From assembly GCF_022557175.1 (NCBI RefSeq), contig NZ_CP092915.1:4092001-4156000 (forward strand): 64,000 nt of DNA, in the 5' to 3' direction. Below, piece by piece: positions 16,106 to 33,392 of the stretch. The notes beneath the pieces were generated by a model. It saw nothing but the letters and a program-made list of their open reading frames with translations, was not told the DNA's origin and did not search any database. A program made the translations under genes and the position numbers. Numbering within the stretch: the first letter of the stretch is position 1; each line of letters opens with the position of its first letter. Source of the stretch: Mycolicibacterium sp. YH-1 (lineage in GTDB: Bacteria; Actinomycetota; Actinomycetes; Mycobacteriales; Mycobacteriaceae).

Positions 16106-16122
16106 CCAATGTTTCGACCCCG

Positions 16123-16194: not shown

Positions 16195-16387
16195 CCACAG
16201 TTTGTGCAGTTCAGAGTGCTTATCTAGCACAACTATGCAGTGGCCATGTAATAAACATGAATAGCGCTCACACACAGGACCCCAGCGGACCGACATCAGG
16301 TTATCGAACTCGGCCCCTCGCGGCGACCGAGTAGCTCAGCGACTGACTCATCAGCATCGACTGCCACGCCGCCACTATCCTGCTCGG

Positions 16388-17346: not shown

Positions 17347-18576
17347 GTGAGTTTCTGGGACGACGACGTCTTTGACCGGCACCCTGTCTGGGCGAAGGTC
17401 GATGAGTTCGCACGCCTGATAGACGACGAACGTCTACCAGGGGACGTTGATGCACCGCAGCGGCTGTCGATTGTCCGCCTCAAGACAGCCCTAGAGCTGC
17501 TACGGGAGCACCGCGAACGTGGCGTAAAAGTTCACTACACCGCATCCATGCTCGACAACGTGGACAACCAGCTGACCAACGCCGTACTACCTTCGTTGAC
17601 GACATTTGTCGACAATCCAGACGACTACGGCAACGCCGTGAACGACGCAGCTGATCACGCAGACTCGCTGTTCGCCTATGTAGCCCAGTGGCCCTCGCTA
17701 CCAGCTGGCGGACAAGCCAGTGCTGCGGGACGTGCGTTCGCTGAGTACAAACGTGAAGCCGAAGTTGCCCTCCAAAACTTCGCGGAGCAGAACACTGCCC
17801 TGAAGGCCGAGAATGACAAGCTGCAATCGGAGTTGGGCAATGTCGAGCGGCTCATGGATGGCGTCCAGGAGAAGTATGAAGCTTCTCTGCAAGAGCGCGA
17901 AAACGAGTACGTAGAGGCGATCAATCGAGTAGAAGAGTCTGGCAAGGAGGCGTACGACAAGGCGATTAAAGACACCCTTGACGAACGTCTCACGAAGTTG
18001 GTCTGGTTGGAAGGCCAAGCAAATAAGTCCGTTGAACGCGCAGCAAGCGCGCAGAAAGAGGCGGAAGACCTAGCTGCAGCTAGCAAGAACTCCGCCGACT
18101 GGCTATCCAAGCGCGCGTTCGCAAAGGACTTCGGGGAGCAGGCACGGCGGAAGTCAGCTGCGGGCTGGGCCTACGAAGTACTGGGAGCGATCATTATTGG
18201 CGTTCCGCTTGTCGCGCTACTCGTTCACTTCCTGACCAATCAAAGCACTGACGGCACGCTCGCGGTGAGCATGACGCGGTTGAGCATCATCATTGGCGCA
18301 GTCGTCCTGGGCGGCTACCTATTTAGTCGCGGCGCAACCAACCACCGTCAGGCGCGTGCAAGCAAGAGCGCCGAGATTCGGTTGAATAACTTTGAAGCGT
18401 TCATCGTGAAGCTCACACCTGACGAGCAAGCGGAAATTCGCGCTGGCATGGCAAGGACCATCTACCTGCAGGGCCGCCTATCGGATGAGGAGCCGGACAG
18501 TCCGAACCCCGTGATGCGCCTACTGAATCGGGCGACTGGCAAGGATGGGGACGAGAACGAGGACAAGACGGCCTAG
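17347..18576 (+). CDS. Coiled-coil membrane protein of unknown function
   Basis: 409 residues from GTG 17347. Residues 1-120 are a helical domain (VDEFARLIDD, IVRLKTALELLREHRERG). Residues 130-270 are a long Gln/Glu/Lys-rich coiled coil (FAEQNTALKAENDKLQSEL and following). Two membrane helices follow at about 285-305 and 315-335 (IIIGVPLVALLVHFL and LSIIIGAVVLGGYLF), then a cytosolic tail. The frame is open upstream to 17173 but that part is not protein-like. Codon use is less GC-biased than the core. Three bases later a second membrane-protein frame begins, so this leads an operon. Sensor or effector roles in defence are guesses. Confidence 0.7.
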   Translation: MSFWDDDVFDRHPVWAKVDEFARLIDDERLPGDVDAPQRLSIVRLKTALELLREHRERGVKVHYTASMLDNVDNQLTNAVLPSLTTFVDNPDDYGNAVNDAADHADSLFAYVAQWPSLPAGGQASAAGRAFAEYKREAEVALQNFAEQNTALKAENDKLQSELGNVERLMDGVQEKYEASLQERENEYVEAINRVEESGKEAYDKAIKDTLDERLTKLVWLEGQANKSVERAASAQKEAEDLAAASKNSADWLSKRAFAKDFGEQARRKSAAGWAYEVLGAIIIGVPLVALLVHFLTNQSTDGTLAVSMTRLSIIIGAVVLGGYLFSRGATNHRQARASKSAEIRLNNFEAFIVKLTPDEQAEIRAGMARTIYLQGRLSDEEPDSPNPVMRLLNRATGKDGDENEDKTA

Positions 18577-18665
18577 CCATTGAGTGCTGACGAACTGAAG
18601 CCGACTGCGACATCCGCCTGTCTGGGCCCACGGCGTTTCTTTGGCCGCGTGAAGACCTGGACGGT

Positions 18666-18992
18666 TTGCGCGATGAGCTGGCCAGTGACAGTTACGAGCT
18701 GGCATTTGAGGAGCCAACGCCGCCGGACTACAACGTCCACGCCCCACTGACGGCGGTAGGAATCTTCCTAGCCGGTGCCGCGACCACCACTCTTCTCAAC
18801 ACGGCGCTGAAGGATGCATATGACGGCGCGAAGCGATGGCTCAAGAGCCGGTTCGAGAAGGATAAGGACGCAGACGCCGTTGTCGTAACTATCTACGGTC
18901 CAAACGGCAGGCCACTGAAGAATGTGCTTGGCAGACCACCGAATATCATCAAGGACCTTGACGATTATGCGGAGCGCGACCGTGATTCCTGA
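18666..18992 (+). CDS. Small membrane-associated protein, start uncertain
   Basis: 108 residues from a TTG at 18666. One hydrophobic segment (VGIFLAGAATTTLLNTAL) is followed by a basic helix (YDGAKRWLKSRFEK) and a strand-rich end with VVVTIYGPNGRPLKNV. The frame upstream is open from 18591 and reads protein-like (DIRLSGPTAFLWPREDLDGL) but has no ATG or GTG. Either a TTG or CTG start is used or a frameshift separates it from the TTG at 18580. The layout, a small domain, one membrane segment and a short beta domain, resembles effector-associated small proteins of actinobacterial conflict systems; this is only a resemblance. Overlaps the next gene. Confidence 0.55.
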   Translation: MRDELASDSYELAFEEPTPPDYNVHAPLTAVGIFLAGAATTTLLNTALKDAYDGAKRWLKSRFEKDKDADAVVVTIYGPNGRPLKNVLGRPPNIIKDLDDYAERDRDS

Positions 18993-19728
18993 GTGGTTTC
19001 CAGACGCGGATACATGGGCCGCGTGGGCGCAATGGATTACTGCGGCTATTGCTTTCGGCGCTGGGATTTTTGCCTACCAGCAGGTCAAGGAAGCCCGCGA
19101 GACCCGCCAACGTGTCGCCCAGCCTGAGGTTGTCGTGTTCGTCGATCACCATCAAGTGCGGCGCTACGTCGACCTGGTGATCAAGAACTTCGGTCAGACT
19201 ACGGCTTACAACATCAGGGTGTCTTTGAGTGACTTGTTGCAGGTCGCTCCGTTCAACAACCAAATCGACGGCAAGCGAGTAACCCATCTTCAAGTGCCCG
19301 AGAAAATCGTGGTGTTAGCACCCGGCCAAGAGTGGCGAACCGTTTGGGACTCGGCCGTCAGGCGCGAGAAGTACAAAGGGCCGCCGCTCACGGACAAGTA
19401 CGGTGGCGTTGTCCAGTTCGATGACAAGGTCGATGGCCCCGATAAGCGAACATATAGCAACCCGATTGCGCTCGACATCAGGATGTTCTGGAACACGATG
19501 TGGATTGAACAGAAGAAGGGAAATACAGTCGAGAGCCATCTCCGAGATATCGCTACCACCCTGGAGAGCTACAAAGAAGAGCACGATGGAGTCTGGGTCT
19601 ACACCGTTCCAGGCGACGAAGAACGCGACCATCGGGCAAATCTGGAAAATGACCCAGAATATGCCTTTGACGTCTTTATGGACGACGTCAATCGCGTGGA
19701 ACGGCGATATCCACCTTCTTCCGATTAG
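18967..19728 (+). CDS. Membrane-anchored protein with beta-rich soluble domain
   Basis: 253 residues from ATG 18967; a GTG at 18982 is an alternative. One N-terminal membrane helix (WITAAIAFGAGIFAYQQV) is followed by a basic stretch and a beta-rich domain with VVFVDHHQVRRYVDLVIKNF and GQTTAYNIRVSL. The motif N-x-G-Q-T-T-A-Y-N-I-R-V is nearly repeated in the protein at 34438. A helical tail ends the protein. The start lies inside the end of the previous gene, so the three frames from 17347 to 19728 are one operon. Function unknown. Confidence 0.7.
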   Translation: MRSATVIPEWFPDADTWAAWAQWITAAIAFGAGIFAYQQVKEARETRQRVAQPEVVVFVDHHQVRRYVDLVIKNFGQTTAYNIRVSLSDLLQVAPFNNQIDGKRVTHLQVPEKIVVLAPGQEWRTVWDSAVRREKYKGPPLTDKYGGVVQFDDKVDGPDKRTYSNPIALDIRMFWNTMWIEQKKGNTVESHLRDIATTLESYKEEHDGVWVYTVPGDEERDHRANLENDPEYAFDVFMDDVNRVERRYPPSSD

Positions 19729-19849
19729 ATTGCCTTCCGTCCAAGTGGCACAACGCTTCCCGTGGGGACAGTCTGGTGTCTCGCGATCGTGTTGCGTACC
19801 CAACGCATACCGGACGAACGGTGTGCAGCACGCGTGGTGCGGAGGGCTT

Positions 19850-20932
19850 TCAGGAGTTCAACAGGCCTGGTGTCCAAGTGCGGGGTAGATCCGATGGCTG
19901 AACCGGCTGGCCGATCGCATGCACTCTCCAACCACCAAGCTCTGGCCGAAGAACGAGCGTCAGAATCATGGCGTTTGTCGGAAAATAACCGCCGACTAGT
20001 TGCCAGACCGCTACGCCTTCCGCTTGCGGTGGGTCGTCGGCAAGTCGGATGTAGGCAACGTCATAGACGGGCTTCACTACGCCGGTGGCGATACCGCTGT
20101 TGCTGGTACGGGCACGAAGATTCGGCAAATCCCATAGACCGTCAGACTCCGGTGTGACCGTGGAGCGGATGATTCCCTCATCCAGCTGAAGAACGCCATA
20201 CCACCACATGTATGCGACGGCGAATGGGTTATCCCGGCTGATAGGGCCACCGGCAGCGTGCGACTCCTCTGCGGATGCAGGAATGAGCCGACCCGGAAAT
20301 GGTGGTGCTGAAGTTGGCGCTTCCGATCCGGGAAAGCCGGGCGGAAGTGGAGGCTTTCGGCGTTCTGAACCGACCGCGCTTAGAAGGCGCGAACGCGCAG
20401 TCTCCATGTCTAACCCAAACAGATCAACCGAAACGACCTGTCCCAACAGTCCTGGGCGAGTGCAGTCCGCAATCCTGAAGACCAAGAGTCGCCGCTCTGC
20501 GCCAGACGGGTCTCCCCTCCATGCCTCCTGCCATTCGGCGCTGGCGAACTGGGACTGCAAATACTCATCAGAAAGCACTGCGATTGTGCGGTCCGCCAGT
20601 GACGTTGCGCGGTGCATTTCCTCGACGAAGTGGGCACCTGGAGTGAAGTCCCATGTCTGCAGGAAGGTCGTGTATCCGGCCTCCTCCAAGGTCCACGCGA
20701 GCCATTCCGCCCAAGCCTCGTCTGCGGCCGTATAGCTAACAAAAAAGTCTCGACGTTCATTGTCCCCACTGTCACCCACGGGCCTTAGCGTAGGTGGTCG
20801 ACCTTCAGTGGCGTCGACAAGACGCTCGAGAGCAAGCGACGTCGCGTGAATGGAGCGCAAACCTTCGTGACGAAGACTGTGTTTCGTAGTACTAGACACG
20901 CCCTGACCTACTCGATGCGAACGAGACGACAT
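19850..20932 (-). CDS. TIR-domain protein with C-terminal second domain
   Basis: 360 residues. Residues 60-160 are a TIR domain: DFFVSYTAADEAWAEWLAW (first strand and helix), TFLQTWDFTPGAHF (BB-loop region), IAVLSDEYLQSQF and the catalytic-Glu position in ASAEWQEAW (E133). Bacterial TIR domains are known NAD-cleaving or nucleotide-signalling modules in anti-phage defence. A Pro-rich linker (195-230) leads to a 130-residue domain with FAVAYMWWYGVLQLDEGIIRS and LTLVLRPELGGWRVHAIG, an NTF2-like pattern. ATG 20932 has no strong Shine-Dalgarno. Last of four minus-strand genes beginning with the recombinase. Confidence 0.85.
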   Translation of the reverse strand: MSSRSHRVGQGVSSTTKHSLRHEGLRSIHATSLALERLVDATEGRPPTLRPVGDSGDNERRDFFVSYTAADEAWAEWLAWTLEEAGYTTFLQTWDFTPGAHFVEEMHRATSLADRTIAVLSDEYLQSQFASAEWQEAWRGDPSGAERRLLVFRIADCTRPGLLGQVVSVDLFGLDMETARSRLLSAVGSERRKPPLPPGFPGSEAPTSAPPFPGRLIPASAEESHAAGGPISRDNPFAVAYMWWYGVLQLDEGIIRSTVTPESDGLWDLPNLRARTSNSGIATGVVKPVYDVAYIRLADDPPQAEGVAVWQLVGGYFPTNAMILTLVLRPELGGWRVHAIGQPVQPSDLPRTWTPGLLNS

Positions 20933-21056
20933 GGACGTTTGTCGCGACTGACAACGTTGGGATCGTTAAGAATCAGCAGGTCAAAGGTTGCGTACGTTGG
21001 CGAGTTGAGAGGGTCGTCGGAACTACTGCGGACGGATTGCGGACGCGCCAGAACGC

Positions 21057-21554
21057 TTACAGGGAGACCTCGCCCTCTGGAGCCTGCTCAACCACGACGC
21101 GCCGCATCCACTCAAGCACAGTGTCCACGCGGTGATGTTTGCGCTGCGGAGCGAGAATCTCGTGGAACTGATACCCCACCCCCGCAATCCGCCAAGTGGC
21201 GTGGTCGAGGTGCATCCCACGACCACCGATTGTCGCGTCGATGGTGTTCTTGCCGTGTTTAAGAGTGAGTGTCGTACGGGCAATGCCCCAGTCTGGGTCG
21301 ACCTTCGTCTCTTCCTGCGTTTCCCAGCCGGTCACGGCGGCCACAGTCCGAAACCGCTCGACTACGGGCATCTCGACATCTTGCGGTCTGCCATAGGCCG
21401 CCACGTCGTCCACCGCTTCGGCAAGCTCGGCGAAGCCCAGAAGCTTTAGCCGCAATGACGCGGCGGCCAACAGCCGATCAAAATCGGCAGGGGCAGGCAT
21501 AGCCCTGATGGCCTCTCGGAGGGCCTCCCGAGGGTCTGGTTTCTGTCTAACCAT
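21057..21554 (-). CDS. Unrecognised soluble protein
   Basis: 165 residues from ATG 21554, preceded by GGTGGAAT. The N-terminal half is helical (PREALREAIRAM, FDRLLAAASLRLKLLGFAELAEAV), the C-terminal half beta-rich (ARTTLTLKHGKNTIDATIG, WRIAGVGYQFHEIL). No signal, membrane segment or catalytic motif seen. It sits between the TIR gene and the UDG-fold gene with gaps of about 120 bp on each side, same strand, and could be part of the same defence module. Function unknown. Confidence 0.65.
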   Translation of the reverse strand: MVRQKPDPREALREAIRAMPAPADFDRLLAAASLRLKLLGFAELAEAVDDVAAYGRPQDVEMPVVERFRTVAAVTGWETQEETKVDPDWGIARTTLTLKHGKNTIDATIGGRGMHLDHATWRIAGVGYQFHEILAPQRKHHRVDTVLEWMRRVVVEQAPEGEVSL

Positions 21555-21666
21555 GAGGTCATTCCACCAGACACCGACGTCAGATTTTACGGAGAGAGAC
21601 AAAGCGCTGGCCGTTCGAGGCAGTGGCCGGGGGCAATACGGGCTACCCCCAGGGGGTGCGTCGACG

Positions 21667-22323
21667 CTACTCGACCAAGGGGAACTGGGTCTTTTCGCCG
21701 TTGACTACGCGTGCAACCGTCTCAAAGGCTCGCTGCTGCTTATCGAGTCGAGCCTGGCGCTCGGCCAGGTCCGGCGTCCATTGCGCTTGCCGGCTCGGGT
21801 GAATGCTCTCGATGACCACCAGGCCACGGTCGGCAACCATCGCTGGGCGCAGCTTCACGACGCGCTTCCAAACGTCGACTGCTGATCCTCCTTGCAACAG
21901 AACTACTTTCAAGGCAGGGATCAGGTCGATGAGTTCGCAGAGGACCTCGGCTCCGGCGTTCTTCTCCTCGGCATTCGGAGCACGGTCGATGAACCACGGG
22001 TAGGCGTTCCACGGCAGGACCCAACGCGGGGAGATTTCATGGGCGTCGAATAGTTTGCATTGGGCTTCGGCAGTTGCATCGTTGTTCTCGATGCATAGGA
22101 AGCCCGAACCCCCGCCGTCGAGTGTTGCTTTTCCGGGATCGCTCAAGACGCTAAGGACTTTGGCATCGACGCCACCGTGCAGCGGAGCTACCTTGGGTAG
22201 CCAGCCGCGCCCATTCGGATCAGTCAGTTGGTCAACGAAGGCGTTGATAGGGGCAATGTGCGGGTCTGATTGATGAGCGAGCTGGCTAGCCTTGAACTCT
22301 GCATCTTTCATCCGCCGCACCAT
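21667..22323 (-). CDS. Uracil-DNA glycosylase-superfamily protein
   Basis: 218 residues. Three family marks are visible: LSDPGKA near residue 60 (the G/S-x-DPG motif after the first strand), WNAYPW near 105, and IHPSRQAQ near 175 (the HPS DNA-binding loop). These fit the UDG fold but the usual catalytic context of families 1-5 is not complete, so base-excision activity is not certain. It starts 10 bp after the serine recombinase stop and shares its strand. Such stand-alone UDG-fold proteins occur on mobile elements. No signal peptide. Confidence 0.72.
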   Translation of the reverse strand: MVRRMKDAEFKASQLAHQSDPHIAPINAFVDQLTDPNGRGWLPKVAPLHGGVDAKVLSVLSDPGKATLDGGGSGFLCIENNDATAEAQCKLFDAHEISPRWVLPWNAYPWFIDRAPNAEEKNAGAEVLCELIDLIPALKVVLLQGGSAVDVWKRVVKLRPAMVADRGLVVIESIHPSRQAQWTPDLAERQARLDKQQRAFETVARVVNGEKTQFPLVE

Positions 22324-22333
22324 GGCAGGCAGG

Positions 22334-22933
22334 CTAGCTGACCGCTTCTGCGAGAACTCGATAAACCGTCGCCCGGCTTACGCCAAGCGCGGCGGCAATG
22401 GTGGTCGCTGATTCCCCACTTGTATGCATCCGCTGAGCCAGCGCAGCCTTTTGGCCATCGAGGACCTTGGGCCGCCCGATAGCCTGTCCGCGGGCCCGGC
22501 GTGCTTCGCGGGCGGCTGTGCGACGCTCACGGCCAAGTTCTAATTCCAGTTCGGCCAAGCTCGCGAGTACTCCGGCCACCATGCGTCCAGCGGCGGTGCT
22601 GGTGTCGATGCCCTCACGCAGGCTGCGCAGCACGATGCCACGCTCGCCAAGTTCCCTAATGGTGGTCATGACCTCGGCGGCGTTCCGGCCCAATCGGTCG
22701 ATTCCAACGACCGTGATCGCGTCGCCTTCGCGCGCGTAGTCGAGCAGACGACTCAGACCGGGGCGCTGTTCCCTAGTGCTCATGCCGGTGAGCTTGTCGC
22801 TGTAGATGCGGTTAGGTTCCACCCCGGCGGCAGTGAGGGCGTCGGCTTGAGCATCGAGGCTCTGGTGCCCGGTAGAGACACGGCAATAACCAAGCAAGGT
22901 TCCGTTGGCGGCGGGAGCGGTCGCAGTCGACAT
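22334..22933 (-). CDS. Small serine recombinase (resolvase/invertase type)
   Basis: 199 residues. The N-terminal catalytic domain has LLGYCRVSTGHQSLDAQ with the nucleophilic Ser, then DKLTGMSTREQRPGLSRLLDYAREGD and VVGIDRLGRN. A helix-turn-helix (ESATTIAAALGVSRATVYRVL) ends the protein. Size and layout match Tn3-type resolvases and DNA invertases. ATG 22933 is chosen over an upstream frame start at 22957 because it begins the protein-like part. A res-like repeat array lies immediately upstream. No transposase is seen, so this may be an orphan from a lost transposon or an element-maintenance resolvase. Confidence 0.9.
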   Translation of the reverse strand: MSTATAPAANGTLLGYCRVSTGHQSLDAQADALTAAGVEPNRIYSDKLTGMSTREQRPGLSRLLDYAREGDAITVVGIDRLGRNAAEVMTTIRELGERGIVLRSLREGIDTSTAAGRMVAGVLASLAELELELGRERRTAAREARRARGQAIGRPKVLDGQKAALAQRMHTSGESATTIAAALGVSRATVYRVLAEAVS

Positions 22934-22936
22934 ACA

Positions 22937-23006
22937 GAGAGTGCTCAAAAGTCTCACAAGCCGTCAATATGCGATAGATATTATGAGACGTGTATTGAGA
23001 GTGCTC
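22937..23006. promoter_or_regulatory. Candidate res site upstream of the serine recombinase
   Basis: GAGAGTGCTC occurs directly repeated at 22937-22946 and 22997-23006, 60 bp apart. Between them GTCTCA (22951) and TGAGAC (22984) form the ends of a 39-bp imperfect palindrome with an AT-rich centre. Directly upstream of a resolvase gene this is the expected form and place of a res site. The rest of 22.93-23.21 kb shows no gene. Confidence 0.5.
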
Positions 23007-23209
23007 GACGTGGCGATTCTTCTGCTGCAAGCGATCCTGTCCACCCCGTCTCAGTTCTTTAGTTCTGAGATGCGATCGCTTGGTTGCGTGCTAGCAACTA
23101 TCGACTAGCGGAGCAATCGCACTCGGCGCCAGAACAATCGCTCGACTGTTGTCGATGGCGGCGCTGCACTGTCGCCCGTGACGTTTGTGGAACACAGATG
23201 GCCGGCGAC

Positions 23210-26158
23210 CTAGTTAGCGTTTTGGGCTTCCAGCCAGGCGCCGTGTTTCGCAACGAATTGACCAAAGATCGCCAGTGCGTCTAGGGGCCTGTCGCCAAGG
23301 AAGCCACCTGAAAACTGCGCTCGCGTTGCGAGTCTTTCCAGAGTGGCGTGTCTTTCGCTTCCAGCCACAATCCAAGGCGCATAGCCTCTACGGCGAACGA
23401 CTTCGGCCAAGCTCAATACCATTGAGGATGCGCCGACTGCCACTGCTGCACCGCCTATCAGCCAGAAATGATTTGCACCCGCATCTTTTTCACGTTCACG
23501 ATCAGGGTAGGCGTCAAGGATGGTCTCAAGGGTGGTGCTGCCGGAGAGTGCAAGTCGATAATTGTGGCGACAGGCGTAGGCGGTCAGGTCTGTCACGAAT
23601 TCTCTTATTTGACTATCGAATTCGATGCGCTCTGCCATCGTCTCAACTTCACTCAGAAGGAGGCCCCAGGCCAATGAGTTCTGGTGTTCAAGCGTATGCA
23701 GACTGCAAATCCGTAAGATGTCACACGCTGATTCCAACTTTCTGTCTGTATCGACGTTCTTCCCCGATATTGAGGTAATAACAATCGCTGCAGCGTATTC
23801 ATTTTGGTCCGTCGGTGTCAGTAGTGTGCGAATCAGATATTCGAAAACTTTCGAGCCGGGACCGGTGGTGTCGACTGCCGCCCGCGTCGCTACTCCGAGG
23901 ACATCACGAAGAAGCGCGTGTATTGGCGGAGCCGACGCCTGGCTGCTCAATGTGGGGTTGGAGGCTCCGCTGTCTATGGCAGGCTTGGCGGCTGTTGTCT
24001 GGCCTTCTTTGACACTCTCTCGGAGTGCCCATCGATTCAGAGCAGCACGTCGGGCAGTCCTGGTGTGAGCCATATGAGCGTTGACAAAATCGGCGACCGA
24101 CTGTGCCACTTGGTGGGCCGTACCGATGTCACCTGAAGTCACCAGATCGGAAGTGAGTTTCATGAGAGCTAAAGCAGCGCTGCATGTCTCATCGATTTCG
24201 GCACTGCTTCGTACTTTGAATCCGCGCCGTGCTCGGGAGATCCAACCGGGGCGAATAGATTGGTCTTCCAATGGCAGTGCGTAGGCGAGGTTGTCGTGCC
24301 GGTTGACCGCCATACCGATGACGCTCGTGATCCGGAGTCGTAGACCTGCCTGCATCGGTTCACTGGCTAGAAGTCTCCTGAGACCGCCGCGATGCGGCAA
24401 GAAAATTCCCCGCTGGCGCGCGCCGATAGGCCGATCCCAAGTTCCCGGAACAGCACCAATGAGCGACTCGACGGCTGAACACGACTCGATGAGTGAATTT
24501 AGTTCCATAGCCGATGCTTGGTATTTCCCCACCGTTCGGCCAACATTGCGTGCTTGTTGCTTCCGGATCGACACGAACCCGGCGGCGGCGCGAGCGAAAT
24601 CAACCCGCCCAAATATGGTAAGTAGCGCGAAGATCAGACTGCATGCCCATATCGCCAAGGACACTGTTGAGAGCCAGTTTCGTAGGAACGTCCATGGGCC
24701 GCGCTCTGGCTGGCTGGGCTGCCAAATCGCGAGACCGATCATGGTCAAGGACGCGGCGTAAGCGACATCTAATTGCCAGGACTGGCTTGTGTGACGCGCA
24801 ATAATCCCTGGAAGTCGATTTCCCGAAAGGTTCGCGGCAAAAACTTGGACAGTGGCGAGTAGGGCCAACGTCGCAATCGCAGGAGCGACCGGTACTTCAA
24901 GCGGGCTGATTTTCGGAAGCTGTGCTTGAAGCAGCGCCGAACTGCCGAAGCACACCGCAAGAACGACTATCCAGCAAAAAAGCCGTCGCCATACGGGACC
25001 GGTCGGCATGGCAGCGATGCCACCGCGAGCTAGGACAGGCTGCGGAAGCGTTCGTAGGCTGGCGTTCGCCAAGCGCGCTATTTCTGTGATCTCGGTCGAC
25101 GTGAACTTCCCGTTCGTCGCTGCATCCGCGATGACCAATGGTGTGGCCGGACCTCGCGCCCGCAGAGCGACTGCGAGAAGCTGTGCCAGCAGCGGAAATT
25201 CATCGGCAGGGTCCCGAGCCGACAATGCTGCGAGCACCATCGCCTCCAGTTCATGCCTCTGTCGGAGGAGGCTCACGAGTGCCCTGCGAGCAAGCAAGGT
25301 TTCTCCGCTTGGGTCGTACGGGCCGAGCGTGCGATCAACCGCTTGGAGGAGATGGCCGAAGATACAACGAGCATGTTCGTCGCTCATGGTGCTAGCCACT
25401 TCGGGCACGAGCCGGAGCAGTGCACAACGTCGAGCCGGTAGTTTTTCTGCCACAAGTTGTTGACTAACGACTGTCTCAAGCTCAAGCCCGTCGGCGTGGT
25501 GTCTGATCCATTGATTTGCTGCGATCCGCCAGTCGTGCGGTGTGTTGTTGCTTGCTACGTCGACGACGAGGCTGAGGGAAATGGTCGGATCGGGTTTGTT
25601 GGCGACTAATGCTTGGAGTACGCGATTGCCTAGTAGCGCGGATGCCAGTTGGTTGCCGCGCATCGCAGGAATTTTCGTTGGGCTCGTCCATCTAACGGCC
25701 CCACCCACTACGCAGCGCCAGAAGGACCTACGTCTGCCAATTGCGTGTGCGGTGGCGACGGGCCTGGAACTTGGGAGTGCGGTCTCGCTGCCATCATCCT
25801 TCGGCATATCCCGTTTGAATCGCCTCTTGTCGATGACGGTAAACCCCCTTGTCGTATCGGTGACCGGGGGGCTTGCATCTGAGGTTTCTCTTTCGCGGCT
25901 TACGGCGGTCTCTTGGACGACAGTTTGCGGTTGAACCTTGTTGGACTGCCAACGCAGCCACAAGAGGGCCAACTTCAGAATGAAAGGCTTGATGAACTTG
26001 CGAAGTAGTCGGCGGACGGGTGTAGTGATGGTTTGCCGGAGGTTCTGAACCATCGCGGACTGGACTAACGCCAGCGAGTAATATCTGGGAAGTTGAGTGA
26101 TAGATAGCCCATCGAAAACCTCAAATGGCCTGTGATCAACCGGAACTGGTTCGCTCAA
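23210..26158 (-). CDS. Large membrane protein of unknown function, coupled to a portal-like gene
   Basis: 982 residues, not recognised. Residues 1-70 hold amphipathic helices; 70-380 a long helical soluble region including Leu/Ala-rich repeats (FPLLAQLLAVALRARG); four membrane helices at about 390-410, 423-443, 463-481 and 494-516; then some 400 soluble residues and a last hydrophobic helix near 915-940 (WLIGGAAVAVGASSMVL). No ATPase or nuclease motif is visible. The start is TTG at 26158, overlapping the stop of the upstream gene by four bases (TTGA), so the two are made together. Low GC and ordinary codon use. Confidence 0.75.
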   Translation of the reverse strand: MSEPVPVDHRPFEVFDGLSITQLPRYYSLALVQSAMVQNLRQTITTPVRRLLRKFIKPFILKLALLWLRWQSNKVQPQTVVQETAVSRERETSDASPPVTDTTRGFTVIDKRRFKRDMPKDDGSETALPSSRPVATAHAIGRRRSFWRCVVGGAVRWTSPTKIPAMRGNQLASALLGNRVLQALVANKPDPTISLSLVVDVASNNTPHDWRIAANQWIRHHADGLELETVVSQQLVAEKLPARRCALLRLVPEVASTMSDEHARCIFGHLLQAVDRTLGPYDPSGETLLARRALVSLLRQRHELEAMVLAALSARDPADEFPLLAQLLAVALRARGPATPLVIADAATNGKFTSTEITEIARLANASLRTLPQPVLARGGIAAMPTGPVWRRLFCWIVVLAVCFGSSALLQAQLPKISPLEVPVAPAIATLALLATVQVFAANLSGNRLPGIIARHTSQSWQLDVAYAASLTMIGLAIWQPSQPERGPWTFLRNWLSTVSLAIWACSLIFALLTIFGRVDFARAAAGFVSIRKQQARNVGRTVGKYQASAMELNSLIESCSAVESLIGAVPGTWDRPIGARQRGIFLPHRGGLRRLLASEPMQAGLRLRITSVIGMAVNRHDNLAYALPLEDQSIRPGWISRARRGFKVRSSAEIDETCSAALALMKLTSDLVTSGDIGTAHQVAQSVADFVNAHMAHTRTARRAALNRWALRESVKEGQTTAAKPAIDSGASNPTLSSQASAPPIHALLRDVLGVATRAAVDTTGPGSKVFEYLIRTLLTPTDQNEYAAAIVITSISGKNVDTDRKLESACDILRICSLHTLEHQNSLAWGLLLSEVETMAERIEFDSQIREFVTDLTAYACRHNYRLALSGSTTLETILDAYPDREREKDAGANHFWLIGGAAVAVGASSMVLSLAEVVRRRGYAPWIVAGSERHATLERLATRAQFSGGFLGDRPLDALAIFGQFVAKHGAWLEAQNAN

Positions 26159-27498
26159 CTGACTGGCTTACTTGGCGTGGCCCCGTCAGTAGTCAACGCT
26201 TGGGCCGAAGGGCTCATGTTCGTGAAGCCTTGAAAGTAGAGTCCTTTGGGTATGGCGATTTTCAGCATGTTGCCACCGAGAATAGGCCCAAGAATTTCGC
26301 GAGTGCTCTCCTCGCATTTCGCTAAGACGCGGTTCGCAAACGGGACTCGAGCACGTTGGCTTTGGCGCACTTCGTCGGGGACCTCGTCGGTGTCCCATGC
26401 GGCATCGCAAGCCAAGATGTGTTCAGCTATCTCTCGCTGGAGTTGCAGGCTCACGAATGGTTCGAGGAGGCTTATTCCGTAAGGGCTATTAGCCTGCGTT
26501 GCGCCAGTCATGTGCATGACTTTTCGATGAACCAGAGTTCCCGATGTCGTTGTTTCCAGGTAGGCGCCGTCATCGCGTATTGAAACGGTCTCGGGCCGGA
26601 GAAGACGTATGTCTTCGTCTGACACTGGCCCGTGCAGCAGGTAGCCGTTTCCGCATACGTACGCATCGCGCACTAGATGTGCTGTGTAAGTTCGACTTAG
26701 CCCGAGGTCGAGAAAATCTCGCACGAAACCTGCTGTTTCAGCGTTCGTGCCTCCCATGGAGTTCATTCCCTGGCTGAGCTGCGTGGCCAGTCTGTCGATC
26801 GCCCCACGTACAGCGGGTGACTCGTTGTAGATCCTTCTGACTATTGGTAACTGGCGTGCTATTTGGTCGTGAGTCATCAGCGGACTCGTTGCATGAATTA
26901 CAAGGGGTGACCGGCTGGCCTCTGCTCGTACTTTCACTGCGTGAGCCGCGACCCGCCACCCCTGCAATCGGATCAGGTCTGCAACTTCTCGGTCGGCCTT
27001 TGCATCTATCTGGCTGCCGATGATGTCGGCGTTCGTGATGGAGTCGCCTGACAATCCGCTCGTAAGTGCACGTCTTCCAACCAGTCTCGCTAGATAGGAA
27101 ATCGTGTGTTGTATCTGCACGTCGACCGGATGGTTGGCAACGACCGCATAGAGGAGAGGGTTATCTTCTGTGCTTGTTGGAGACTGCACAACGTGAGCCG
27201 GAGGTGGTGCAGGCATTAGAGGAGCCCTAGGCAGCTGAACGGTTCGTCCGAGTCCGAGCTGAATAGTAAAGCCAAACACTAGGTGGTTCAGGCACGACCC
27301 ATGATCAAAGAGGCCGATGCGAACGAATTGCCCCTCCTCGTTGTCAAGAGACGGTGACGTCGAAATAATGGACGCCAGCTCGCTTAGCGCTCTGGTAGAA
27401 GCAAGCAGATGTGAGCGCGTGGCTTCGCCGTAGCCTGCGTTTAGCCCCCGGAAGGCATTGACAAGTTGTAGTCGGTTTGCGGTATCGGTGACTACCAC
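26155..27498 (-). CDS. HK97-type phage-portal-like protein
   Basis: 447 residues. Residues 1-200 are an N-terminal region unlike portals. Residues 220-365 resemble phage portal cores: SPAVRGAIDRLATQLSQG, DAYVCGNGYLL, LRPETVSI, and NSPYGISLLEPF, which match the usual portal features (helix, D-x-x-x-x-GNGY, L-x-P-x-x-V, S-P-Y-G-x-S-x-L). It ends soon after, so it is shorter than a virion portal. GTG 27498 follows AAGGAA. No capsid, terminase or protease gene is nearby; the partner is a membrane protein. A domesticated portal is the likely reading, but distant similarity only. Confidence 0.6.
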   Translation of the reverse strand: MVVTDTANRLQLVNAFRGLNAGYGEATRSHLLASTRALSELASIISTSPSLDNEEGQFVRIGLFDHGSCLNHLVFGFTIQLGLGRTVQLPRAPLMPAPPPAHVVQSPTSTEDNPLLYAVVANHPVDVQIQHTISYLARLVGRRALTSGLSGDSITNADIIGSQIDAKADREVADLIRLQGWRVAAHAVKVRAEASRSPLVIHATSPLMTHDQIARQLPIVRRIYNESPAVRGAIDRLATQLSQGMNSMGGTNAETAGFVRDFLDLGLSRTYTAHLVRDAYVCGNGYLLHGPVSDEDIRLLRPETVSIRDDGAYLETTTSGTLVHRKVMHMTGATQANSPYGISLLEPFVSLQLQREIAEHILACDAAWDTDEVPDEVRQSQRARVPFANRVLAKCEESTREILGPILGGNMLKIAIPKGLYFQGFTNMSPSAQALTTDGATPSKPVS

Positions 27499-27728
27499 TG
27501 CTGCCTGTTCCTTGTTGACTAAATTGACGACCCGTTCGACTCGGGCCTACGCAAACTAAGATACCAAGACGGAGGGGCGCACAGAGCATCTTGACCTGCG
27601 CACCGCAACGCCGTGCATGTGAGATCGAGACGCCGGTCGCGTGCACTTCGCTCTCGCTGGTCGCGGAACTTTCGCTGCGACTTTAGGAGGCGCACACCGT
27701 TGGTTCTGAAGCAGGTCCCCGCCGGGAG

Positions 27729-28535
27729 CTATGGAGCGGATTCCACCGCCTGCTCCGTATAGACGTCCCCGGCAGTGCGGATTACCAACTCAGTACTGCT
27801 GATCTCGTACAACGTCCCGTCGGTGTTGGAGGCAGCGAAACCTGATTCGGTTTGACGGGCTCCACCTAGTTCGATGAGCCCGTTGTCGCTGAGTCGTAAT
27901 CCCCGGTAGTAGAGCGCGTTCTGAGTTGTTTGGCAGACAACGACGGCCGACTTGGCTGTTCGCACGACCTGCACGGCTTGGTCGGTGCCGTGGCACCGCG
28001 CCGCGCCCTGGTATGTCGTAAAGCCCTGGCTATCCGCGTCGGGCAAGACGGCGCTAGGCACCGTCGCTGCAGCCACTGGGAATGGTGGAGTAACCGGCAC
28101 TGGAGAGATGAGAGTCCAAGTCGCACAGTGCTGCGTCATGAACCCGGCATCAGACGCCGGGATCTGGACCACTTGCGGGCCAGCCAAGAGGCCGTTCGTG
28201 ATGCGGTCATCGGCTACACCGCTAAAGCCGGAGAGCCTTTCCCAGTAACACGATTCCGATCCCGTGGTCCGGTATGTGCCGGGTCGGATGTCGCTACCCA
28301 CGCGGTAAATACCGTCTCCAGAGATGGTCGTCCCAGGCTGCGGTGGCGTTGGAGGCCGGGTAGGCGTACCGACCGCTCGAGTTGTCGGCGTCGCCTGGGC
28401 TGTCACAGTGTCTCTAACCGTCACCGTCGTCGGCGACACCGAATGACCGCCAGGCGCACAAGCCACTAGCGCACACACCAGTGCAGGGAAGCTCAGCGTA
28501 GAAATTCTCACAGCGGAGTTAACCGCACGTGACAT
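27729..28535 (-). CDS. Lipoprotein with tryptophan/cysteine-rich ligand domain
   Basis: 268 residues from ATG 28535. A lipoprotein signal ends at VACAPGG (lipobox LVAC). A Thr/Pro-rich linker leads to GDGIYRVGSDIRPGTYRT, then SCYWERLSGFSG and a later HCATW, a pattern shared by many actinobacterial lipoproteins in which Cys-Tyr-Trp packs against a bound glycan or lipid. A second domain follows (ARCHGTDQAVQVVR). The upstream ATG at 28661 would leave the signal internal. Minus strand, in the island but with GC closer to the host. Confidence 0.78.
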   Translation of the reverse strand: MSRAVNSAVRISTLSFPALVCALVACAPGGHSVSPTTVTVRDTVTAQATPTTRAVGTPTRPPTPPQPGTTISGDGIYRVGSDIRPGTYRTTGSESCYWERLSGFSGVADDRITNGLLAGPQVVQIPASDAGFMTQHCATWTLISPVPVTPPFPVAAATVPSAVLPDADSQGFTTYQGAARCHGTDQAVQVVRTAKSAVVVCQTTQNALYYRGLRLSDNGLIELGGARQTESGFAASNTDGTLYEISSTELVIRTAGDVYTEQAVESAP

Positions 28536-28548
28536 CAAGGCTGTGGCG

Positions 28549-28788
28549 TTATCCGTCAAGTCCGAGTTCGGCCAACAGCGCGTACTCGGCGGCGAAGGGG
28601 CGCTCCCGCCTACACCTCGGGGCCTTCCCCGTGACCGGTATGCATTCCCCGTCCTCACCAAGATCGTGCTGCACGTAGCTTCTCACCGGCGCGTCCATGC
28701 GCTGACCGGAACGCCACCGACGGTAGTGCGTAGTGCACCAACCCCTCGAGCGCCTCTGTCGTGTGCATCCATCCTCTTTGCAGGTCAT
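28549..28788 (-). CDS. Small zinc-finger protein of phage type
   Basis: 79 residues from ATG 28788. The motif CKEDGCTRQRRSRGWCTTHY carries C-x4-C-x9-C-x2-H, a zinc-binding knuckle frequent in mycobacteriophage and recombinase-associated small proteins. A basic RRWRSGQR stretch follows. The stop is 13 bp before the lipoprotein start. Function unknown; DNA binding is plausible. Confidence 0.65.
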   Translation of the reverse strand: MTCKEDGCTRQRRSRGWCTTHYRRWRSGQRMDAPVRSYVQHDLGEDGECIPVTGKAPRCRRERPFAAEYALLAELGLDG

Positions 28789-29001
28789 TCTTCTCCAATT
28801 CGATTGACTATCAGACAGTTCTGATGAAGGGTCGTTGCACACTGTTCGCCTGGGGGGTACCCCCGAACCACACCGAACCGGACACTTTTTGCAAATACGG
28901 CCATCCCCCTAAGTCTGGCGATTGGGCTCGTCCATGCAAATGCAATTGGCCTAGCGACGCTCAGGTCTGGGTTACGTCGCAATGGCCGATGCCTTGCACT
29001 G

Positions 29002-29430
29002 TTGCAGCCATGCGTTGTTCGCTTACAGCTCCGCAATCCATTCGTCACCCACCCTGTTGGCCCTAACGCCGATTCGTTTGCGTGCCCGGGCGAGCTGCAA
29101 GCTGATCTCGCCGATTCCCCCGGCGCTCCGCTTTGGCGCGTCCAGGTCGAGTGCGAGGTCGCCAACCTGGTGGTGTTCAAGCGAATGCTGAATCGGGTCG
29201 TGGGGTTCGACCCGTCCCACCCGCCGGAGGTTGAACACCTGGACGTGGACGGCGTGGAGGTGAGCAGCGTTGGTGGTCCCACTCGAAGGGTGACGGTGCA
29301 CCTGCGCGAGTGGGAGAACGAAGGGACCCTCGCGGCGGCACGCGCTGTGGAGTTGGTCAGTGCGGCAAGCCTCGCAGTGCTCCACGGCGGTCCCGCAACG
29401 CTGGTGGACGTGCATCCAGCGGGCCGCTAG
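29002..29430 (+). CDS. Unrecognised small protein
   Basis: 142 residues at most; the true start may be later, around 29080, because the first 25 residues are not protein-like. The rest has strong third-position GC and an alternating pattern (LWRVQVECEVANLVVFKRML, VSSVGGPTRRVTVHLREWEN). No motif recognised. It converges on the gene at 29427 with the stops overlapping. An antisense frame over the same region is less convincing. Confidence 0.45.
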   Translation: MQPCVVRLQLRNPFVTHPVGPNADSFACPGELQADLADSPGAPLWRVQVECEVANLVVFKRMLNRVVGFDPSHPPEVEHLDVDGVEVSSVGGPTRRVTVHLREWENEGTLAAARAVELVSAASLAVLHGGPATLVDVHPAGR

Positions 29431-29837
29431 GCGTCACCCAAAGTAGCCACCCGTCTCGGTGGGTCCGTGGCCGATCGGGACGGGTGGCACTTGGCCCGCT
29501 CACAGTCCAGCACAGACGCCGCCGCGCTGATCGAACGCACCACGGCGGTACGGTCCTGCCACACGTCTTCGCCCCCCTCGGTGAGCACCAGGTGGGCACG
29601 CTCCCGCATCGCTGCTGCCGGGTCCACGTGGTTCACCACGGACAGCAGCACCAGGATGGCCGCCCGCTGGGCATCCGGCCACGCCAAACCGCCGAACACC
29701 TCCTCCAGCTGGAGCAGGCCCGCGACGTCTTGCAGCATCGGGCGGGTCAGCGCGTCGGCCTTCACCACCGCCTCCTGTACCGCGACGAGTAGCTCCAGGG
29801 CGCGTCTCTCCACGTCGGCGGGGTGGTGGGCGGGCAC
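29427..29837 (-). CDS. Unrecognised helical protein
   Basis: 136 residues, almost all helical: ERRALELLVAVQEAVVKADAL, LQDVAGLLQLEEVFGGLAW and AQRAAILVLLSVVNHVDP. The C-terminal 40 residues are less ordered. No signal or catalytic motif. ATG 29837 has weak Shine-Dalgarno. Unknown function; kept because of codon bias and the clean amphipathic helices. Confidence 0.5.
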   Translation of the reverse strand: MPAHHPADVERRALELLVAVQEAVVKADALTRPMLQDVAGLLQLEEVFGGLAWPDAQRAAILVLLSVVNHVDPAAAMRERAHLVLTEGGEDVWQDRTAVVRSISAAASVLDCERAKCHPSRSATDPPRRVATLGDA

Positions 29838-30522
29838 TTCGGATCAAGGTTCATGATCAAACCGTAACTCCGAGTCGGTGAAATACCAAGGTGGACAATG
29901 GAATTGCTAACATGCCTCGATCCAGCATAAGCGCAAGGGCCGACAGATGCGTACTCAGTAACCGGAATGGATTGGGCGACAGACGGCGATCCGCTCGTCC
30001 AGTAATTTCGTCTACCACCGACATGCTCAGGGCCGGACCCCCGCCCCACCACCGACTGACGGACCGTGGCCAGCATCCGCAGCTCACCGTCGATCACCTG
30101 GAGATCACGCACACCACCATCGTCCCCGCAAAATGCCCGACCCTCCCGAGAGAGCCGGGTTCTCCGGCACTAGCAACACACCCCTTCGCCGCCTCAAGCA
30201 GCGACCGCCAGTGTCACCGTCCTCACCGACAAGGTCCTGGATAGACACCCGAAAATCGCTGGCGCCCAAAGACTGCGGATCAGCGGCGGGGAATATCAAT
30301 CGGACCAGTTGGAACCGGCCCAAAAGTGAACACCGAAGTCGTTGGTGCAGAACGTTTTGCCACGATCTGGATCAGGTTCTTGACCTGGAGAATTGTAGGT
30401 CGGCGGCGGCAGGGTCCGGAACCTCATGTGCGCGTTCACTTATACCCCACGGGGGTATGACCACTACCGGTGGGCAGGGGCGGCACGCTGAGGTTTCCCG
30501 TTCTGAGGTACCCCGGTGGGAA
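29838..30522. other. Long non-coding stretch with an orphan operator
   Basis: No convincing gene over 680 bp. It contains the CsoR-type palindrome at 30442-30458. A 43-codon minus-strand frame (30296-30427) starts 15 bp from that palindrome but has no Shine-Dalgarno and no recognisable content. The rest looks like degraded DNA. Confidence 0.45.
30442..30458. promoter_or_regulatory. Orphan CsoR/CstR-type operator
   Basis: ATACCCC-AC-GGGGGTAT, arms of seven bases. It is nearly the same as the site before the repressor gene at 10707 but 20 kb away inside the island, next to no recognised sulfur or copper gene. Confidence 0.55.
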
Positions 30523-31224
30523 CTAGTCGGTAGCTCCAACAGAGCCGCGAAACGCCTTTTCACTGGCCACCATGATCTTGAGGAGTTCGGCTGCCCTCGC
30601 GGCCACCTCAGATGCCTTCGCAACATCGCCTTGGCGCGCAGCTTCGATGAGATTGTGGTGGGGTAAGTCCTCGGCCAAGCAGTAGGCGGCGATTCCGCTC
30701 AGGGCATTTACAACCCGCTGGTCCCCAATGACAATCATTGCGCGCTCGGTCTTTTCCAGCAGTTCTTGGAAGGAATCCTCCGCATTGTCTATGACAGTTT
30801 GGATCTCAGGGAAAGCACTGTCGTCGCCATCCTGTTCAGCCGCTACAGCTCCTGACAAGTAGCCGCTGGCCTCAACGTATGTGCGTATCGCGTCGTACAC
30901 CCCGATTAGCACCTCACCGTCGAGGCGCTTTCGTTCGGCACGGGCGATCCCCTGCTGGACCTCAACCTGCTCGGCGGCTTGCCGCCGAATCACTACCGAT
31001 TGCCACAATGCAACACCGACTGCGAGCAAGGTACCCACAGCTGCGAACCCTTCGGAGACGCTGCCCCAGCTGATCACTGTGTAGGTCTGGTGGATGGCCA
31101 CTGCCTGGATCACGGTCAAGGCGATCAGGCACACGGTGGCGATGCCGAACACCACGGCGAGCCAACCCTTGTTGACGGCCCAAGCCTTGCTGCACCGGGT
31201 CGTAAGCGCGCTCCAAGCCCCCAT
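30523..31224 (-). CDS. Two-helix membrane protein with cytosolic helical domain
   Basis: 233 residues. Two N-terminal membrane helices (WLAVVFGIATVCLIALTVIQ and GTLLAVGVALWQSVVI) are followed by a helical domain (VEVQQGIARAERKRLDG, NAEDSFQELLEKTERA) to the C-terminus. The segment WGSVSEGFAAVGTLLAVGVA is close to WGTPWDALASIGTVGALGVA in the protein at 34438. Single gene, ATG 31224. Unknown function; one of several related membrane proteins scattered through the island. Confidence 0.7.
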   Translation of the reverse strand: MGAWSALTTRCSKAWAVNKGWLAVVFGIATVCLIALTVIQAVAIHQTYTVISWGSVSEGFAAVGTLLAVGVALWQSVVIRRQAAEQVEVQQGIARAERKRLDGEVLIGVYDAIRTYVEASGYLSGAVAAEQDGDDSAFPEIQTVIDNAEDSFQELLEKTERAMIVIGDQRVVNALSGIAAYCLAEDLPHHNLIEAARQGDVAKASEVAARAAELLKIMVASEKAFRGSVGATD

Positions 31225-31444
31225 CCGCGAAATCTAGCGCCCGGGACCGACATACCGGTGATGACCCGCCGGTGAATGTGTCGGCGGGGCTCATGGACCA
31301 GGTTCGGCGCGACACGCGCGCAACAACGTCTTGTGTCGCCCAGCGTTGTCGGTACCCGCTGCTGAGCTAGCTACGCACCACTGCTCAACTCCGCTGCTGC
31401 GCGAAAGTGATTCCGAGAAATGCCAAGGACCATGGTCGAAACCG

Positions 31445-31710
31445 GTGACGCACGCGGAGTGTTCTACGGCATCTCCGACAGACGAGGCCGCGAACCTCAC
31501 CGCGCGGTCTCAGTTGATGGTTGCCATTGCCGAACACATCCACGCGCAAGGGTGGACCCAGGTCGAAGGTTTCGCGGGTACTACACATCACCCGGCCCCG
31601 TGCTTCCGACTTGCTCAACGGCAAGTTCAACAAGTTCAGTCTGACGCACCGGTCAACATGCTGCCGGCCGTCGGGCTGAGGGTTGAGACCGCTCTGCAGA
31701 TGTTAGTCAC
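31445..31710 (+). pseudogene. Frameshifted HigA/XRE-type antitoxin gene
   Basis: Frame 1 gives EAANLTARSQLMVAIAEHI with HAQGWTQVE, the first helices of a HTH_37-type antitoxin. At about 31570 the homology moves to another frame, giving SRVLHITRPRASDLLNGKF and NKFSLT, the recognition helix and after. At about 31650 it returns with VNMLPAVGLRVE. Two frameshifts thus break one gene of about 85 codons. No HigB-type toxin is visible beside it. It was probably carried in by the mobile element and decayed. Confidence 0.7.
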
Positions 31711-31789
31711 GCTGCCGTCTGCTCACAATCGCCTCTGTCTCGGCAATGGCATCCGCCTCGTTGTGAGCCTGTAGCGGTACCTGCACCCA

Positions 31790-31963
31790 CTACTCTGCCA
31801 GTTGATCGCTCGGCTCGCGCAGCACCCAACCGCCTACACGATCGGGATGGGCCGGATGCATAGCCATTTGGTGTTGAATTACCGGCAAGCGGTTCGGATT
31901 GTTGCCCCTCGCCATCCATCCCGCGACGTCATCTTCGTGACGGACCTTGACGTTGTCGCTCAT
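31790..31963 (-). CDS. 57-residue protein coupled to an excisionase
   Basis: 57 residues, MSDNVKVRHEDDVAGWMARG and onward to WVLREPSDQLAE. Its ATG overlaps the stop of the excisionase-like gene (ATGA at 31960-31963), strong support for translation. The sequence is acidic with several His and Met; no known motif. Position next to an excisionase suggests a small phage or element protein. Confidence 0.55.
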   Translation of the reverse strand: MSDNVKVRHEDDVAGWMARGNNPNRLPVIQHQMAMHPAHPDRVGGWVLREPSDQLAE

Positions 31964-32154
31964 CGCTCACTGCTCTTTGCGCGCTGGAGCGTGAGCAGAG
32001 AGTCGCGGTCAAAACGAATCGTGCGCGTGCCGAGCCGATAGCCATTGATGCGCGACGCACTGAGCCATCTCCGAATAGTCTTGTCCGACAGACCGAATAT
32101 CTCCGCCGCGGGCTGGATACCAAGGCGGACAGGAAGCGACTCCAGATCCGTCAT
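31960..32154 (-). CDS. Excisionase-type helix-turn-helix protein
   Basis: 64 residues from ATG 32154. The helix-turn-helix GIQPAAEIFGLSDKTIRRWL followed by a wing, INGYRLGTRTIRFDRDSLLT, matches the excisionase/MerR-like DNA-binding domain used by prophage and integrative-element Xis proteins. It lies about 250 bp from a decayed integrase on the same strand, as expected for an int-xis module, and overlaps the 57-residue gene downstream. Confidence 0.78.
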   Translation of the reverse strand: MTDLESLPVRLGIQPAAEIFGLSDKTIRRWLSASRINGYRLGTRTIRFDRDSLLTLQRAKSSER

Positions 32155-32399
32155 CTGCTCTGTAGCGGTCACACATCCACTGTGACATGCCAATAGCTCG
32201 TTCCGGAGACACTGGGGCGTATCATTTTTGTGATACTCCATTGCGCCACAACGTGTTCCACAGCGTGTCAACACCCTGCGCCGCTCCAACATGCAACTTG
32301 ACGCAAGTCGCCTACCTGCAGTTGTTCGGTTACGTGGCGGGGACTCGCTTCATCACTCTCCCCACGCGGACGCATGGTTTTACACGCTGTGAGTTCGGT

Positions 32400-32740
32400 C
32401 ACGCTGAGTCTTGGGTCAGCTTCGGACTCGTCGGCTATCACCTTTCCCGACCTTGCGCCGCGTGCTGGTATCTCGTGCCAGCCGCCGGCATCGAGTGCAC
32501 GATGCGCGCCAATCAGTTCGGCCCACGTCGCGCCAGTCTGGGCCGCAAGGCGGCACCCGCGTGCCGCAAGTCATAGAACACAGATCCGTCCGCTTGGCCT
32601 TCGCCCTGGCTTTGAATAGTGCCGGTGGAGAAGGACGGCGGTAGCCACTCCCCCGTCACGGGCGGAATTCGAAGCGCATCTTTCGGCATCGTCGCAGGCC
32701 AGACCCCGCGCTCTCCCGTTAGCGCGGTGACGTGGACCAA
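32400..32740 (-). pseudogene. Decayed tyrosine integrase, catalytic domain
   Basis: Minus strand. One frame gives GSVFYDLRHAGAA (the H-x-x-R box). The next frame continues AAQTGATWAELIGAHRALDA (the conserved stretch after it). A third frame gives TRYQHAAQGRER, which contains the nucleophilic Tyr region, and the second resumes with KVIADE. Successive frameshifts therefore break an actinobacterial/phage integrase C-terminal domain. Upstream to 32740 the frame is open but not clearly integrase-like. It pairs with the excisionase at 31960. Confidence 0.75.
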
Positions 32741-32902
32741 CTCGCCGAAGTACCGGCCCGGGCGGAGACCACCAACATGGTCGTCGGGGTACGCCAGGTC
32801 GAGCTGTTGCGCACGCTCACCGTGTCACCACGTCCGGCCACGTTCATCGTCTCGGTCTGACGCGGCACCAGAGAACCGGCCACCGCGTTTGTCGGCTGCC
32901 AC

Positions 32903-33172
32903 GTGGTCGCTCTGTTTTGCCGCGCGGGCTACTGCCTCGACGGCCGACCGGCTCGGCCGCTCACCGAGTCCGTGACGGTCTACCGAGGCGCGACACGCGG
33001 CGGTCGGTTCGGCATGGCCTGGACAACCCACCGCGACGTTGCCGAGCGGTTCGCTGGCCAGCCAGGCGGCCAAGTTTGGGCCACGACCGTCGAGCCACTG
33101 CACCTGCTGGCCTACGTCAACGACCCACGCAACCCCGAACACCAGTACGTCGTGGACCCGAGGATTGAGTGA
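32903..33172 (+). CDS. ADP-ribosyltransferase-like protein, probably truncated
   Basis: 89 residues. VTVYRGATRGG, FGMAWTTHRDVAERFAG and EHQYVVDPR are spaced like the R, S/T and E motifs of the ADP-ribosyltransferase fold. I recall similar actinobacterial proteins as longer, about 140 residues, beginning with a helical domain and an RAGYC-like segment; here only CRAGYCLDG remains at the N-terminus. Upstream DNA has no continuing frame, so this is likely a truncated gene. Toxicity or activity cannot be inferred. Confidence 0.5.
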   Translation: MVALFCRAGYCLDGRPARPLTESVTVYRGATRGGRFGMAWTTHRDVAERFAGQPGGQVWATTVEPLHLLAYVNDPRNPEHQYVVDPRIE

Positions 33173-33279
33173 CGCGAACGTGCGCCGGGCACAGTTGCCC
33201 CTACCGCCGGTCGGATGCCCACGCTCCACTTAGGCGGGTGACGCAGGCCCGCGACCCCGGCGGCAGGTGGCCAGCGTTC

Positions 33280-33321
33280 GGGCTACGGGCTACGGGCTAC
33301 GGGCTACGGGCTACGGGCTAC
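33280..33321. repeat. Six tandem copies of GGGCTAC
   Basis: A perfect 7-bp unit repeated six times in 42 bp, in the gap between the ART-like gene and the membrane protein at 33393. A seventh partial unit follows. Not a CRISPR: no spacers. Confidence 0.95.
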
Positions 33322-33392
33322 GGCGTAGCTGGTCCCGCTGAACAGAGCGTGTCTTGCGCCAGTCCGGCTACTCGGTGCCCTAGCTTCTGCCT

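Follow-up and report, generated by a model that had tools for sequence, protein, structure and literature searches.

A 64,000-nucleotide stretch of the Mycolicibacterium sp. YH-1 genome (positions 4,092,001 to 4,156,000 of contig NZ_CP092915.1; hereafter, the window) contains two overlapping genes, which encode a 447-residue protein with features of phage portals (P0001) and a 982-residue membrane protein (P0002). We found that this pair recurs as a unit in other genomes and is mobile cargo: in the window it lies on an island that starts at a tRNA-Val gene, in genome G383 it is accompanied by an integrase next to tRNA-Phe, and in G1117 by a TrwC relaxase and an integrase. P0001 and P0002 match nothing in the four family libraries searched (Pfam, PHROGs, NCBIfam and PADLOC), and the portal resemblance of P0001 appears weak but specific. 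We tentatively read the pair as a conserved cassette of two genes that actinobacterial integrative elements carry as cargo and that encodes a membrane-anchored sensor/effector, a reading that we regard as possible rather than probable.

The portal-like gene was found at five loci, namely the window, two further genomes of its genus and two of a Nocardioidaceae group, and at all five the two genes are neighbours, with a spacing that ranges from a 4-nucleotide overlap to a distance of 7 nucleotides. At the four further loci, a P0002 relative lies directly downstream of the portal-like gene or, at L007, of its C-terminal piece; the coupling to a membrane protein noted in a preliminary description of the window is thus retained in other genomes. 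Locus L006 (G383) encodes proteins of 438 and 1007 residues with a 4-nucleotide overlap, followed by a tyrosine integrase gene adjoining tRNA-Phe (contig L011, equal in length and match, appears to be the same contig and was treated as such). The genes at L012 (G1088, a Nocardioidaceae metagenome-assembled genome) encode 431 and 969 residues and also overlap by 4 nucleotides, and those at L162 (G1117; 451 and 880 residues) lie 4 nucleotides apart, with the TrwC relaxase gene about 2 kb upstream and a tyrosine integrase gene downstream. At L007 (G407), a Mutator-family transposase together with two integrase-family open reading frames (ORFs) interrupts the portal-like gene (positions 10646-15285 of that locus), and the gene for the 984-residue large protein begins 7 nucleotides after its C-terminal piece. 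Because of this interruption, the portal-like copy of G407 looks inactive. Identities among the five loci range from 28.0 to 56.2% for the portal-like proteins and from 23.5 to 44.7% for the membrane proteins; they drop broadly in parallel, which fits joint inheritance.

These loci come from genome surveys that used the portal-like gene as the query. Matches were obtained in 1 of 100 relatives (its own genome), 4 of 396 genomes of the genus (its own, G383, G407 and G404), 1 of 348 of the order (its own), 2 of 396 of the phylum (its own and G1006), 2 of 294 in the family to which G1088 belongs (that genome and G1117) and 2 of 345 from the class (its own and G1434), the samples overlapping so that the counts are not additive. 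G1434 is nearly identical to G1117 in coordinates and size and was taken to be the same genome. Two hits were rejected as spurious: the one in G404 covers 74 residues (expectation value (E) 9.3e-4) and no partner gene was spotted by eye among the ORFs of that locus, and the one in G1006 covers 63 residues with an internal stop (E 9.7e-4).

The island in the window was delimited by comparison with 11 relatives, which scored highest among 41 genomes searched and were compared with flanks of about 1.5 kb. Their similarity to the window ends at the tRNA-Val gene, and the window sequence beyond this point is seen in only one of them (G002). In that genome, a stretch matching window positions 38695-39347 resumes about 0.8 kb past the tRNA, which gives the island a maximum length of about 22.5 kb. 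G012 has a match to 39201-39944 that starts about 4.5 kb past the tRNA, and in G011 no window-matching stretch was found in the 11.3 kb examined. The G+C content is 0.57-0.64 over positions 16001-36000 and 0.64-0.71 outside. Similar to integrative elements at tRNA genes, the loci feature tRNA-Val or tRNA-Phe edges, tyrosine integrases, and excisionase-like (by PHROGs, in the island) and resolvase genes. They differ from such elements in that the pair looks like cargo among neighbours that change with the locus, and in that neither a duplicate of the tRNA-Val 3' end nor an attachment-site repeat was found here.

Both ORFs of the pair lie on the minus strand of the window exactly as first described, and the overlap between the P0001 stop and the TTG start of P0002 likely reflects translational coupling. 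A scan for promoters and terminators gave background levels. The preliminary description had also assigned four central helices to P0002. Kyte-Doolittle hydropathy gives four central maxima, at residues 393-411 (2.11), 424-442 (1.97), 460-478 (1.15) and 499-517 (2.25), of which the third is weak; an additional hydrophobic peak lies at residues 900-918. Four central maxima are present in all five membrane proteins, the third being weak in P0002 and at L007 (1.28) and clear at L006, L012 and L162 (1.42-2.15).

Library and sequence searches placed neither protein in a family. P0001 and P0002 gave no NCBIfam match and only chance-level PHROGs matches, and neither matched a Pfam family. With the five portal-like family members, Pfam searched up to E 10 yielded no portal match and just Imm32 in one member (E 0.19), and PHROGs searched with five portal-like sequences from four loci likewise contained no portal match. 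In tblastn searches, the best matches of P0001 among 50,697 phage records were four with E = 8, and none was found among 72,556 plasmid records; three portal-like proteins reached only E of at least 3 against the phages, and two of these three as well as P0002 gave nothing against the plasmids. Scans of viral contigs with both families and pattern scans with P0002 over genome and viral contigs gave no match, and sequence searches of the PDB returned nothing usable. A GAF-like N-terminal domain, suggested by reading the portal-like sequence, is backed by no family match and was discarded.

The motifs that had first suggested a portal, GNGYLL, LRPETV and NSPYGISLLEPF, are all present in the translated P0001, and profile-profile comparison supports the likeness. 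Using hhalign, we compared a profile of the portal-like family with profiles of phage portals. With four members against 11 portals, GNGY was paired with GNAY of HK97 gp3 (E 0.0015, probability 17%); against a six-portal HK97-type profile, the values were E 0.019 and 2.5%. Adding the fifth member improved the six-portal comparison to E 0.003, and against 18 portals residues 243-347 were aligned with E 0.0013 and a score of 35.0. The best shuffled profiles in this comparison scored 22.6 (200 column shuffles) and 34.2 (200 ten-column block shuffles), and the reversed profile 13.5; residues 205-345 alone scored 30.2, against a maximum of 22.8 in 200 shuffles. Consistently, comparison with 85 portals gave a full-family score of 37.0 (E 0.00058) and E 0.00027 for residues 195-447, with best shuffles of 27.2 and 30.6. 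These 85 comprise the earlier 18 and 67 of 80 further loci (13 were left out by name); some portal ORFs were taken from stop to stop, and the 67 further ones were cut at about 348 residues. None of 400 shuffles reached the real score in either test, so the portal-like stretch exceeds what these shuffles give. Control profiles from five phages gave E 0.36 for terminase, 0.13 for protease and 0.63 for capsid, although with five sequences each they are shallower than the portal profiles, and E was 0.77 when the membrane family was compared with the portal profile as a negative query.

The best alignment to HK97-type portals (residues 267-347) covers the motifs GNGY, LRPE, a VxH-like element and YGISxLEP, and the broader one places residues 243-347 or so against about 80-199 of HK97 gp3 with GN-Y, L-P, H-x-x-G and G-x-S in the same order. 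The matched region of HK97 gp3 is, we assume, the wing. In P22, subunits contact one another at the wing (PMC13386823).

On its own, the portal-like stretch does not establish that P0001 belongs to the portal family. The signal is confined to about 64-105 residues, and hhalign probabilities with HK97-type profiles stay at 10-42% with five members and 2.5-17% with four. With four members, three mycobacteriophage portals combined in a profile reached E 0.75, and none of 11 single portals matched (E 0.043-0.71, the best of them in another region). Residues 338-447 scored 12.0 against 18 portals, where the shuffle median was 11.5, and 10.6 against 85; residues 20-195 gave no portal match (best E 0.028, and 0.22 against the larger profile). 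The profile alignment is limited to residues of about 243-347, and no portal family model, including PF04860 of the HK97-type portals, recognizes the protein. P0001 further differs from these portals in its N-terminal part, in its conserved membrane partner and in having no recognized terminase, protease or capsid gene nearby. Single-sequence structure prediction gave a mean predicted local distance difference test (pLDDT) score of 35.8, too low to be informative about the fold. The string MSPSAQAL near the C terminus was likened by eye to the portal MSPDEAQ motif; the profile comparison of that segment found nothing, and we dropped the assignment.

The surroundings of the pair contain no recognizable phage structural cluster, in agreement with the preliminary description. 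No capsid, terminase or protease match was obtained among 17 island ORFs searched with PHROGs and 10 island or neighbouring ORFs searched with Pfam, which together represent part of the island ORFs, and the sole head or packaging match among them is a weak one (phrog_14074, E 2.8e-4; ORF 17242-18576). PF04860 has no match in the 7.27-Mb host genome. Among the neighbouring ORFs scanned at the other loci (one at L006, seven at L012, five at L007 and four at L162), no terminase, protease or capsid was seen either. Given the lack of structural genes among the window ORFs scanned and of PF04860 in the host genome, we rejected a decayed prophage as the origin of the pair.

Table 1. Coordinates of the gene pair, its island and neighbouring genes (window positions unless marked otherwise)
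Feature	Position	Strand	Basis or remark
P0001, 447-residue portal-like protein	26155..27498	-	GTG start; ORF and relatives at 4 further loci
P0002, 982-residue membrane protein	23210..26158	-	TTG start; ORF and relatives at 4 further loci
TTGA overlap, P0001 stop / P0002 start	26155..26158	-	4 nucleotides
P0001 codons for residues 267-347, best HK97-type portal alignment	26458..26700	-	hhalign
P0002 codons for residues 393-517, predicted central four-helix region, third helix weak	24608..24982	-	hydropathy
tRNA-Val(gac), island left edge	16123..16197	+	similarity to 11 relatives ends at 16197-16214
Variable island with the pair	16198..38694	.	right edge is an upper bound
TIR-domain protein, neighbour	19850..20932	-	Pfam TIR_2 E 1.9e-31
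Serine resolvase/invertase, neighbour	22334..22957	-	Pfam Resolvase E 3.3e-36; phrog_125 E 2.5e-60
BilC-/BilD-like genes and DUF6791-ThiF gene (L012 positions)	6688-8657 and 14846-16078		

Defence-type genes occur near the pair at four of the five loci. In the window, this is the TIR-domain gene, located 2.3 kb from the pair, whose product has a C-terminal part of no recognized family. At L007, the next large ORF on the same strand encodes a 958-residue NB-ARC protein; at L012, the pair is preceded by a peptidase M78 gene and by matches to BilC and BilD, and followed by a separate DUF6791-ThiF gene; and at L162, a PglZ gene lies about 7 kb upstream. The pair thereby resembles island-borne defence cassettes (Bil, PglZ-type, TIR, NB-ARC/STAND) in its company, and differs from them in that neither P0001 nor P0002 matches a PADLOC-DB model.

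Several other features of the island were noted. The ORF at 17242-18576 has, by eye, a coiled-coil appearance and a membrane segment; coiled-coil similarity probably explains its weak matches to LeoBC, BrxC and a virion structural PHROG. Those at 18922-19728, 30523-31224, 33393-34187 and 34438-35400 appear by eye to have one or two N-terminal membrane helices followed by a soluble domain, and the first of them matches phrog_9607, a PHROG without an assigned function (E 1e-17). A weakly uracil-DNA-glycosylase-like protein is encoded at 21667-22323 (PF03167, E 1.1e-4, below the family cut-off), a short ORF at 28549-28842 matches an HNH-endonuclease-like PHROG (phrog_5351, E 3.2e-8), and a tandem repeat of about seven CGGGCTA units lies at 33279-33327.

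According to the reading that we favour, the two proteins act together at the membrane. Since the genes overlap or abut, the proteins are probably made together, and gene order and co-inheritance suggest that they probably form one complex; the retention of the pair despite divergence to 28-56% (portal-like) and 23-45% (membrane) identity is in line with this. The large protein is predicted from hydropathy to sit in the membrane via its four central helices, flanked by long N- and C-terminal parts. The small protein would be soluble, with a portal-wing-like stretch and an N-terminal part of about 200 residues unlike portals. It might meet a product of a phage or a competing element, our best guess for the target, perhaps through its portal-like surface, and the membrane protein might then act by altering the membrane. 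The mobile-island setting and the defence-type neighbours are circumstantial evidence that fits the 'defence device' of the preliminary description, and the pair may act in conflicts with phages or with other elements. Several observations weigh against this reading. The split into sensor and effector is a guess, and no PADLOC model recognizes either protein. L006 has no identified defence gene, although only its integrase was scanned and the contig starts 1.3 kb upstream of the pair. The identified neighbours vary from locus to locus, and because islands commonly gather defence-type genes, the association at four of five loci may reflect simple co-residence.

An alternative that we take as a serious possibility, if short of even odds, is that the portal likeness is short and coincidental, or reflects one small shared beta unit, and that the pair forms an island-borne membrane complex unrelated to portals. 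The brevity of the alignment, the low hhalign probabilities, the failure of every single portal and of the mycobacteriophage portal profile, a segment 338-447 that scores like its shuffles and the lack of any portal match in PHROGs or Pfam and of any significant phage match are all in its favour. It has to contend with four motifs in portal order and at similar spacing, with two tests in which no shuffle did as well (although one block shuffle came near, 34.2 against 35.0) and with the far lower signals of the terminase, protease, capsid and membrane-family comparisons. If the likeness is instead one of descent, the pair could be a domesticated portal-derived protein joined to a membrane protein, forming a new membrane-based immunity or DNA-gating device spread among Actinobacteria by integrative elements; we consider this unlikely. 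Among the matches listed, no literature title concerned the reuse of a portal protein in a membrane-linked or defence pair rather than in a virion.

Two more specific functions were weighed in connection with the portal-like stretch. P0001 could serve as a decoy, a membrane-bound portal-like protein that captures or poisons phage portal subunits, terminase or scaffold and so blocks virion assembly. The stretch itself, the membrane partner and the island context would suit such a role, and portal and terminase proteins are known to trigger Avs immunity (PMC12931631), which by analogy suggests that bacterial immunity watches the packaging machinery. However, in true portals it is the clip domain that binds terminase (PMC10359639), and the P0001 segment expected to hold the clip is unlike portals; nor did the phage searches find a portal near enough in sequence to suggest co-assembly. 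We hold a decoy to be unlikely. A DNA-passage channel of the mobile element, in which a portal-like ring would rest on a membrane base and serve transfer or entry exclusion, seems to us still more improbable. Integrase, relaxase or island features at four loci, and the TrwC relaxase about 2 kb upstream in G1117, would accord with it, but a relaxase was recognized at only one of the five loci, none of the neighbouring ORFs scanned was recognized as a gene for a coupling ATPase or type IV secretion, nothing points to a ring, and the sequence that follows the wing-like stretch does not resemble portals. The lack of a recognizable clip domain thus speaks against a straightforward packaging decoy and a DNA channel alike.

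If the portal link holds, a portal-like module outside the virion, fixed to a membrane protein and spread as cargo, would put a packaging protein to an unusual new use, and the pair would be a candidate defence type that none of the four family libraries recognizes. Even without the portal link, it would remain a conserved gene pair lacking a family and carried on actinobacterial mobile islands.

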